DNA of 34,131 bases from Desulfobacteraceae bacterium (lineage in GTDB: Bacteria > Desulfobacterota > Desulfobacteria > Desulfobacterales > Desulfosalsimonadaceae). The stretch spans positions 1 to 34,131 of the forward strand of contig QZKW01000017.1 of assembly GCA_003599885.1 (NCBI GenBank). Reading direction: 5' to 3'. A program made the position numbers and the translations under genes. This document shows, one piece after another, positions 30,705 through 33,372 of the stretch. How positions within the stretch are numbered: the first letter of the stretch is position 1; every line of letters begins with the position of its first letter. Under the pieces are notes generated by a model. That model saw only the letters and a program-made list of their open reading frames with translations, did not search any database and was not told the origin of the DNA.

Positions 30705-30733
30705 TTGAAACAGTGTTCCGTCGTGCTTATTAT
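30705..30733 (+). promoter_or_regulatory. Promoter of the GEMM riboswitch transcript
   Basis: TTGAAA (30705-30710), a 17-base spacer and TATTAT (30728-30733) make a five-of-six plus five-of-six sigma-70 promoter. The predicted start near 30740 coincides with the 5' edge of the aptamer. Confidence 0.7.
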
Positions 30734-30740
30734 TGACTAT

Positions 30741-30985
30741 GTAAAAGGCAAACCATTTCGAAAGGATGGGACGCAAAGCCACTGGCCTAAATTCTTTTTG
30801 GTGGATTATTTTTTTAACCGGATGAATTTTTTATAAAAAGAGATGCCTCAAGGAGCAATACCATCAGGTCATATGACCGCATCATAGATCAAAGGTATGT
30901 TTCCATGGCAGGTGTGAAGTCTCTTATGGAATATGCATCTGATAAAAAAACCCAAAGCAGGAACATGGTAGCAGGGTTGCCTTAC
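30741..30985 (+). ncRNA. GEMM-I (cyclic-dinucleotide) riboswitch aptamer with large insertion
   Basis: The 5' half matches the GEMM-I consensus closely. GGCAAACC (30747-30754), a stem capped by a GAAA tetraloop (30760-30763) and GGGACGCAAAGCC (30768-30780) form the first arm, then CTGGCCTAA (30782-30790). The 3' half CATGGTAGCAGGGTTGCC (30964-30981) matches the second arm and tetraloop-receptor end. GTAA (30741-30744) and TTAC (30982-30985) can close P1. The two halves are 173 nt apart, far more than usual, and the spacer can itself fold: TTTTTTAT/ATAAAAAA (30827-30834 with 30942-30949) and AGATGC/GCATCT (30841-30846 with 30935-30940). By alignment the ligand-contacting residues look like those of c-di-GMP binders, but cGAMP variants occur in this phylum. 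Confidence 0.72.
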
Positions 30986-30998
30986 CTGAAAGATAATG

Positions 30999-31039
30999 CC
31001 GGAGCCTCCTTTTTATTTTAAAAGGTCTCCGGTTTTTTT
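30999..31039 (+). terminator. Terminator / expression platform of the riboswitch
   Basis: CCGGAG (30999-31004) and CTCCGG (31027-31032), extended by CCTTTT/AAAAGG inside, form a long stem followed by seven T. It begins 13 bases after the aptamer and 112 bases before the next gene, the usual place for a transcription-control platform. Outside the promoter, aptamer and terminator, 30668-31151 holds no supported gene. Confidence 0.85.
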
Positions 31040-31151
31040 ATGACATCAATTTGACGCATCACGATTAACCCCACCCTGTTTTCCGGTTTTTAAAATGTAA
31101 ACCGGTATCCGATCCAAAAACGGTAACCATATTAACAAAAGGAGTCTGACC

Positions 31152-31526
31152 ATGGAAAAACAGATTTCGGTGGCAAAGCATGAAAACAGTATTTTGCCAG
31201 GGTTCAGAAATAAAATCAGCAAGGCGGAATCTGCTGAAGATGTGAAAAATTTTTTTGTTTATACGGTTCGCGAATTGCTGGTCAACGTGTTTCAGGATAA
31301 CAAATATCATGATTTTGACGCCATTCAGCTGTCAGTGTCTGGAGATCCGCTTTATACGCTGGACGATAGCAGAGTGACCGCCGAGGCTTTTGGGGATGAG
31401 TTTTTTAACATCTGGAATAATTCCGACCTGCCGCGGGTGGTTGCTGGACTTGCGGAGACGGCCACGCACCGGCGTCGGCATCTGGGGAAGAAACCGGAAA
31501 AAACCACCGCCAAAATAAGAAACTGA
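31152..31526 (+). CDS. Small unrecognised protein downstream of the riboswitch
   Basis: The 124-aa soluble protein is not recognised. It begins MEKQISVAKHENSILPGFRNKISKAESAEDVKNFFVYTVRELLVNVF, probably helical, then LSVSGDPLYTLDDSRVTAEAFGDEFFNIWNNSDLP, and has a basic tail (THRRRHLGKKPEKTTAKIRN). There are no Cys, no signal peptide and no membrane helix. AAAGGAG stands well placed before the ATG, which supports a real gene. It is the first gene after the riboswitch terminator, so it is the likely target of cyclic-dinucleotide control. Confidence 0.72.
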   Translation: MEKQISVAKHENSILPGFRNKISKAESAEDVKNFFVYTVRELLVNVFQDNKYHDFDAIQLSVSGDPLYTLDDSRVTAEAFGDEFFNIWNNSDLPRVVAGLAETATHRRRHLGKKPEKTTAKIRN

Positions 31527-31743: not shown

Positions 31744-33372
31744 ATGTTTTGTTATCAATGTGAACAAACGGCAAAAGGCGAAGGCTGCACAGCGGGCGGG
31801 GTATGTGGAAAACAACCGGATGTGGCGGCGCTTCAGGATCTGCTGCTTTATGCGGTCAAGGGTTTGTCCCTGATTGCTTTGGAAGGCCGGAAAGTCGGAG
31901 TTAAAGACGCAGCCAGCAACCGCTTTGCCTGCGAAGCGACGTTTTCAACCCTCACGAACGTGGATTTTGATCCGGACCGGATTGTGGCTTTAATCAAGCA
32001 GGCGGTTGCGCTTCGGAAGGGATTGAAGCAAAAAGTCGACGCCGCAGGCGGATGGACCGACTACACTGACGGCGCAGCCACTTTCGCGCCCGCAGACACA
32101 ATGGACGGACTCGTGGCCCAGGGGGAAAAGGTCGGCGTCATGTCCGATCCAAATCTCAATCCGGATATCCGATCCCTTATGGAAATTTTAACCTATGGCA
32201 TCAAGGGCGCGGCCGCTTATGCGGATCATGCGGCGATTCTGGGCCAGACAGATGACAAGGTGTTTGATTTTATTTTTGAAGGATTGGCCGCCACCCTTGA
32301 CAAGAACAAATCCGCCGATGAGCTGCTGGGGCTGGTCTTAAAATGCGGTGAAATCAATCTCCGGGCCATGGAACTGCTGGATGCCGGAAATACGGGTACT
32401 TATGGCCATCCGGTGCCCACAGTCGTGCCTTTGGGCGTCAAAGCCGGAAAAGCGATCCTGGTTTCCGGCCATGACCTCAAGGATTTGGGCGAACTTCTCC
32501 AGCAAACAGCCGGGAAGGGCATTAACGTGTATACCCACGGTGAAATGCTGCCCTGCCACGGATATCCGGAATTAAAAAAATACCCGCATTTCCATGGGCA
32601 TTACGGCACCGCATGGCAGAACCAGAAAAAGGAATTCGGCGAATTTCCGGGTGCGATTCTCATGACCACCAATTGTATTCAAAAGCCCAAAGAAGACTAT
32701 AATGCCAATATTTTCACCACCGGGCTGGTAGGCTGGCCGGGAGTGACCCATATCGCGGACAAGAATTTCAAGCCGGTCATTGACCGTGCCCTGGCGCTGC
32801 CCGGATTTCCGGCAGATACCGACAACGGAACCGTCATGGTCGGGTTTGCGAGAAATGCGGTCATGGGGGTGGCCGGCACGGTGATTGAGGCGGTCAAAAG
32901 CAAAGCCATCCGTCATTTTTTCCTGGTGGCCGGATGTGACGGCGCCAAGCCGGGAAGAAATTATTACACGGAATTTGTGGAAAAAGTTCCGGCCGATTGC
33001 ATCGTGATGACCCTGGCCTGCGGCAAATTCCGGTTCTTTGACAAAAAACTGGGCGATATCGGCGGAATTCCAAGACTTCTGGACATCGGGCAATGCAATG
33101 ACGCATATTCCGCGATCCAGATTGCGGTGGCTTTAGCCAATGCCTTTGAATGCGGTGTTAACGATCTGCCGCTGTCCATGGTCCTTTCCTGGTATGAGCA
33201 GAAGGCTGTGGCCATTTTGCTGACCCTGCTTTATTTGGGAATCAAGGACATTCGTCTGGGGCCCAGCCTGCCGGCGTTTATTACGCCCAATGTGCTGAAT
33301 ATCCTCGTAGAAAAATTCAATATCGCGCCCATCAGCACGCCGGACGCGGATTTGAAAGCCATTCTGGGGTAA
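31744..33372 (+). CDS. hcp: Hydroxylamine reductase / hybrid cluster protein
   Basis: The 542-aa protein starts MFCYQCEQTAKGEGCTAGGVCGK. The Cys pattern is C3-x2-C6-x8-C15-x5-C21, the short spacing of Hcp from anaerobes such as Desulfovibrio, and holds the N-terminal Fe-S cluster. The hybrid-cluster ligands are seen in THGEMLPCHGYPEL, TTNCIQKP, VAGCDGAKPGRNYYTEF, LACGKFRFFDKKLGDIGGIPRLLDIGQCNDAYSAIQIA. Hcp reduces NO or hydroxylamine and protects against nitrosative stress in the cytoplasm. AAGGAGAAG precedes the ATG. The HcpR-like site upstream fits this role. A hairpin terminator follows, then a cupin gene. Confidence 0.97.
   Translation: MFCYQCEQTAKGEGCTAGGVCGKQPDVAALQDLLLYAVKGLSLIALEGRKVGVKDAASNRFACEATFSTLTNVDFDPDRIVALIKQAVALRKGLKQKVDAAGGWTDYTDGAATFAPADTMDGLVAQGEKVGVMSDPNLNPDIRSLMEILTYGIKGAAAYADHAAILGQTDDKVFDFIFEGLAATLDKNKSADELLGLVLKCGEINLRAMELLDAGNTGTYGHPVPTVVPLGVKAGKAILVSGHDLKDLGELLQQTAGKGINVYTHGEMLPCHGYPELKKYPHFHGHYGTAWQNQKKEFGEFPGAILMTTNCIQKPKEDYNANIFTTGLVGWPGVTHIADKNFKPVIDRALALPGFPADTDNGTVMVGFARNAVMGVAGTVIEAVKSKAIRHFFLVAGCDGAKPGRNYYTEFVEKVPADCIVMTLACGKFRFFDKKLGDIGGIPRLLDIGQCNDAYSAIQIAVALANAFECGVNDLPLSMVLSWYEQKAVAILLTLLYLGIKDIRLGPSLPAFITPNVLNILVEKFNIAPISTPDADLKAILG

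Follow-up and report, generated by a model that had tools for sequence, protein, structure and literature searches.

The window, i.e., the whole stretch of 34,131 nucleotides analyzed, corresponds to one contig of a Desulfobacteraceae genome of 4.5 Mb in 90 contigs. It contains an element resembling a split GEMM-I riboswitch, followed by a short gene. The features, all on the + strand, are as follows:

30705-30733, + strand: promoter-like site, TTGAAA (30705-30710), 17 nt, TATTAT (30728-30733)
30741-30790, + strand: 5' half of the GEMM-I aptamer, namely, P1 strand, G20, P2 with GAAA tetraloop, A47, P3 strand, and receptor strand CCTAA
30791-30963, + strand: P3 arm of 173 nt
30792-30801 with 30951-30962, + strand: basal helix of the arm
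30809-30816 with 30943-30950, + strand: U-run/A-run helix of the arm
30819-30824 with 30936-30941, + strand: arm helix CGGATG/CATCTG
30838-30843 with 30920-30925, + strand: arm helix AAGAGA/TCTCTT
Within 30791-30963, + strand: variable apical hairpins at the apex of the arm
30964-30985, + strand: 3' half of the aptamer, namely, receptor strand CATGG, P3 strand, C92 (30980), and P1 strand
30998-31039, + strand: intrinsic terminator, GCCGGAG...CTCCGG followed by seven T
31152-31526, + strand: open frame of 124 aa, the likely regulated gene

Direct reading of the letters of the window revealed both halves of the GEMM-I aptamer, flanking 173 nt at 30791-30963. The P1 strands are GTAA (30741-30744) and TTAC (30982-30985), the GAAA tetraloop of P2 is located at 30760-30763, and the receptor strands of P3 are CCTAA (30786-30790) and CATGG (30964-30968). 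An initial sequence-only reading had described all of these elements, together with the distance of 173 nt between the receptor strands, and this description was confirmed. The short P3 hairpin loop that is usual in c-di-GMP-I, without strictly defining it, is absent from the window, where the 173 nt stand instead. To number the ligand pocket, the Rfam consensus was fitted to the conserved positions and to the G20, A47, and C92 contacts reported in the available parts of PMC3764141 and PMC4744006, respectively; G20 thus corresponds to 30747, A47 to 30775, and C92 to 30980.

The Rfam model RF01051 scored 39.2 bits on the window, above its gathering score of 35, and was placed on 30737-30812, where the 3' half of the model wrongly covers the start of the spacer. 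In a permissive search, the clan member RF03167 (c-di-GMP-I-GGC) spanned 30738-30985 with a local end of 173 nt (45.1 bits, E = 1.3e-9 for 361 nt), without reaching its gathering score of 59. A model match joining the two halves, as anticipated by the sequence-only reading, was therefore obtained, and RF03167 also bridged both halves in 9 of 9 relatives tested, with all 10 sequences below the gathering score (30.7 to 52.4 versus 59). Because RF01051 misplaces the second half and RF03167 stays below its cut-off, members with a long arm are easily missed by the two models tried. The window reads ACGCAAA, not ACGCGAA, and lacks the G at the A47 position of RF03167, a trait that is our interpretation of the family name from the model consensus. 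The remaining matches of the permissive search (E values of 0.16 to 9.2) look like chance, and this search detected no credible Rfam family within the 173-nt insert.

A search of 291 genomes of the order at the DNA level retrieved long matches in three genomes of the same genus (G030, G029, and G027) and in G199, G245, and G206; the majority of the remaining listed matches extend over the 5' half of the aptamer only. An exact pattern for the split aptamer matched 14 loci in the GTDB collection, 12 of which have a real insert, and had no match in the viral collection. The other two loci, L058:6160-6427 and L063:3582-3839 (a Bacillota MAG and an Anaerolineae MAG, respectively), contain tandem complete GEMM aptamers and were set aside. 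A model of the arm only (R1), run with filters that lose weak matches, gave a single match in each of 10 out of 389 genomes of the order; every match lay inside a GEMM aptamer, and there was none outside GEMM aptamers in the 389 genomes. R1 missed G199, G200, G052, G116, and G082, in which other searches detected long arms. In total, 15 distinct members (the window and 14 relatives) were found in 15 of the 389 genomes, covering five families (f1, f11, f18, f35, and f48). The relatives with the element are named Desulfobacteraceae, Desulfococcaceae, Desulfococcus, Desulfosudis, Desulfoluna, and Desulforapulum, and two further ones only "Proteobacteria" and "Deltaproteobacteria".

The gap between the CTAA receptor strand and the 3' core was 148 to 191 nt in 14 long members, as compared to 18 to 34 nt in ordinary loci (15 of 27 loci readable by the expression). 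Between the receptor strands, the arms of all 15 members measured 115 to 185 nt, the shortest being that of L120. An exact pattern for gaps of 61 to 121 nt had no match in the 389 genomes; since L120, with one deviating letter in its core, escapes this pattern, lengths between the short and long classes may be undercounted.

Folding of 30737-31040, terminator included, resulted in a z-score of -2.26 (0 of 100 shuffles equal), whereas the spacer alone, at -1.96 (8 of 200 shuffles equal), was only moderately better than shuffles. The seven members folded with a shuffle control had z-scores of -2.26 to -4.37, the fold of the window including the terminator. The rod that had been proposed for the spacer is predicted by the folds and conserved in relatives, but its register (30827-30846 with 30935-30949) was partly wrong according to both, and the strands of the small inner hairpins proposed with it were located correctly. 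The apical part of the arm varies freely among members. Internal-loop strands are partly conserved across f1, f11, and f35: the 5' side reads GAC, or AAC in the window, and the 3' side reads [TC]G[GA]AA, except in L066; the divergent members L060, L067, L068, and L120 have the same architecture and, by eye, do not share the loop letters.

RNAalifold predicted 50 pairs from 11 sequences, 9 of them changed on both sides, with a covariation term of only -0.46. In the joined alignment of these 11 sequences, 91.5% of the cells pair, as compared to 45 to 61% with the strands slid. Owing to the close similarity of these relatives, per-pair covariation was weak in this alignment: only 2 of 26 pairs showed changes in both partners, and 21 of 500 shuffles did equally well. 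A joined rod model, run with filters off, recovered only fragments of the arm in most long-arm loci, a consequence of its search window of about 127 nt, and was not used for a covariation alignment; among 27 ordinary loci it matched once, weakly (E = 0.96).

With diverged lineages, the test of pairing between the arm strands is strong. Strands of 45 nt from the two ends of the arm in eight lineages were paired in all 40,320 assignments, and the true assignment ranked best, with a mean of -19.2 kcal/mol within sequences versus -13.9 kcal/mol between sequences. The eight lineages were hand-chosen and, as three of them (L067, L068, and L060) belong to one family, are not fully independent; the permutation ignores kinship. 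Ten control windows from the same loci ranked between 689 and 36,030 of 40,320, and the counts for shorter strands were 4 (12 nt), 15 (20 nt), and 185 (30 nt) of 40,320. At the level of single sequences, the window's own 3' strand was the third of eight partners for its 5' strand, that of L062 was the second of eight, and shuffled 3' strands equaled the true one in 9 of 500 cases for the window and 41 of 500 for L062. For the P1 halves, which are short in several relatives, the same comparison gave 886 of 40,320 assignments, a modest result that is better than most. The expectation that the spacer helices are kept in relatives is thus supported: the arm strands are conserved, and pairing within lineages beats pairing between lineages.

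Three other candidates in the arm were rejected. A leader peptide is not indicated, as the frames from spacer ATGs are by eye not common to the relatives, and a CsrA-like GGA site (motif taken from general knowledge) is by eye not kept in L062. Matches to 30827-30851 in four f24 genomes (three exact over 25 nt, one of 96% over 26 nt) were attributed to chance because the surrounding stretches, which give the impression of coding DNA, resemble each other and not the riboswitch.

The promoter-like site upstream of the aptamer is by itself no better than chance, given that 1.7 sites of this kind are obtained on shuffling the region. A similar box was seen by eye at about the same place in 13 relatives and in L120. 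Of the earlier proposal of a promoter at the 5' edge of the aptamer, the site and its counterparts in relatives stand, while the window scan alone stays at the level of chance; we infer a promoter at this position, from which the transcript would start at about the 5' edge of the aptamer.

The terminator that had been noted downstream was confirmed, with a fold of -17.3 kcal/mol, although a scan limited to loops of 3 to 8 found none at this position. As judged from sequences and folds, terminators are present in 13 of the 15 members, weakly so in L065 and L026; that of L061 was read from the sequence, the script having picked another hairpin. L069 and L120 are without a clear terminator, and L120 is also without a clear hairpin. 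The long-arm aptamer L069:701-980 is directly followed after P1 by a ribosome-binding site, and this, together with the lack of a terminator, suggests that it may control translation. No antiterminator was found. Pairing of the rod strand ACCGGA with TCCGGT of the terminator was considered for this role and rejected, as it is by eye absent from L065, L059, and L026.

The first long frame that follows the switch in its orientation was taken as the gene behind it. In the window this is the 124-aa frame, which has no match in Pfam or NCBIfam and whose homologues in G027 and G199 are likewise preceded by the switch. In G035, the homologue is the second gene behind the switch. The protein family occurs in three genera of the family and in G199. 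Among the 14 genomes with the gene (window included), the long-arm switch is upstream in 3, and no GEMM core was found in the readable 0 to 1,500 nt upstream in the other 11. The AlphaFold model is helical and uninformative, since its pLDDT is 79.7 and the best PDB match has only E = 1.3. A gene for hydroxylamine reductase (hybrid cluster protein) follows the 124-aa gene at 31744-33372.

Overall, the arm stands ahead of at least four kinds of gene. The genes in other relatives include those for a cyclic-nucleotide-binding protein (G029, G035, L061 in G032, and L069 in G031), PAS-containing histidine kinases (G030, G245, and G206), a LolA-like protein (L060 in G116), and arginyl-tRNA synthetase (L068 in G052). 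Behind L059 (G034), a frame that looks receiver-like by eye (L059:4519-4934) is broken by stops, and the genes behind L067 and L120 gave no clear assignment.

The window lacks A20, a GEMM-Ib trait, which is present in 8 of the 15 long-arm members (L057, L061, L060, L062, L066, L067, L068, and L120). One genus alternates at this position among very similar aptamers, with A20 in L057 and L061 and G20 in the window, L064, L056, L065, L059, and L069. According to the available part of PMC6456294, the change A20G in a GEMM-Ib riboswitch switches selectivity from cGAMP to c-di-GMP, and position 20 is described in that of PMC9262584 as contributing to selectivity without acting as a strict filter. 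The mix of G20 and A20 within one recognizable family offers a natural test of the specificity change between c-di-GMP and cGAMP.

In 194 genomes of the order, sites sharing this core numbered 50 with G20 and 7 with A20. The A20 sites were obtained with the wider of two patterns (7 of 194 genomes), used instead of a narrower one (5 of 194). Long arms were more common in A20 sites (5 of 7) than in the G20 sites examined (3 of 29), with a Fisher p of 0.0026 uncorrected for kinship and three of the five long-arm A20 sites in one family, f18. The 29 G20 sites derive from 30 of the 50, one per genome, after removal of one truncated at the edge of its contig; in three, the 3' part was not matched automatically, and visual inspection classified them as short.

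We consider it likely that the element is a GEMM-I (class-I c-di-GMP) riboswitch of the G20 type with a conserved P3 arm of about 170 nt, that it controls the terminator ahead of the 124-aa gene, and that the arm tunes folding. The aptamer halves, the conservation and pairing of the arm, and the terminator are borne out by sequence comparison. Judged from sequence, the switch very probably senses a bacterial signalling nucleotide, the ligand of the window RNA would be c-di-GMP, and control is probably exerted by transcription termination. The arm would extend P3 immediately past the receptor strands for the tetraloop, which would allow P2-P3 docking and formation of the ligand pocket once the 3' half of the aptamer is made. 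It would stiffen P3 and postpone the complete aptamer until 170 more nt are transcribed. Beyond the tuning of folding that we infer, candidate roles of the arm are to stabilize docking, to slow folding, or to bind a protein or second ligand. Of the two possibilities raised initially for the P3 extension, an added domain compatible with aptamer folding is the best reading.

There is some chance that the arm is itself a separate domain for docking or sensing, in which a protein or second ligand would bind the internal loops and P3 would relay this state, resulting in a two-input switch. Its retention in five families before at least four kinds of gene, the narrow length class, and the partial conservation of internal-loop strands among f1, f11, and f35 agree with this; it is made doubtful by the free variation of the apical part, the lack of shared loop letters in L060, L067, L068, and L120 (by eye), and the lack of a credible Rfam family in the insert. 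Slightly less probable is a further proposal, according to which the arm is a second independent input grafted on P3 and kept while base 20 switched specificity between c-di-GMP and 3',3'-cGAMP more than once; if true, the family would be a natural series of two-input cyclic-dinucleotide riboswitches.

Drift in length, i.e., an unconstrained P3 loop that became long by chance and pairs with itself, appears improbable. Small differences in P3 length are known (the A-to-C spacing of Vc1 is 20 nt longer than that of Vc2, according to the available part of PMC4744006), the apex is variable, and the fold of the isolated spacer exceeds its shuffles only moderately, but the own-pairing test, the conserved blocks between families, and arms of 115 to 185 nt against 18 to 34 nt in 15 ordinary aptamers, with no genome of 389 at 61 to 121 nt by a pattern that misses L120, argue against it. 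A mobile or repeat element that was inserted here and that the aptamer tolerates, the other initial possibility, is very improbable: the position is a permissive loop and the gene contexts differ, but it fits less well because the arm is at the same place in five families and occurs once per genome matched by R1, always in a GEMM aptamer. Two unrelated half-matches or halves of tandem aptamers, as in 2 of the 14 GTDB loci, are extremely improbable, given that the insert of the window has no second aptamer core, the arm strands pair, and the relatives are arranged alike.

The likely riboswitch with a P3 arm is the same in layout and pocket as c-di-GMP-I/GEMM-I (RF01051), with which it shares P1-P2-P3, the GAAA tetraloop and its receptor, G20/A47/C92, and a downstream terminator; the arm of about 170 nt at the end of P3 is what is new, the gap being 18 to 34 nt in 15 ordinary aptamers. 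In TPP riboswitches with a P3 extension, a peripheral helix is likewise extended and the pocket unchanged, in another aptamer with another ligand. The GEMM-Ib 3',3'-cGAMP riboswitches of Geobacter (PMC6456294) belong to the same class and resemble the 8 of 15 long-arm members with A20, whereas the window copy has G20 and the available part of that paper does not mention a long arm. In Vc1 of Vibrio cholerae, also GEMM-I, the A39-to-C104 spacing is 20 nt longer than A47-to-C92 in Vc2 (available part of PMC4744006), an extension that, compared by length only, is about a tenth of the window arm. Among the open-access papers listed by literature searches, no title or displayed abstract describes such a P3 arm, which is weak evidence of novelty. 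A conserved arm about twice the size of the aptamer indicates that natural GEMM-I RNAs from several families can accommodate a large domain on P3.

The genome of the window contains six more GEMM-I aptamers (L001 to L006), with the core CGGAAAG in 4 of the 5 examined as compared to CGCAAAG in the window, and 19 GGDEF matches.
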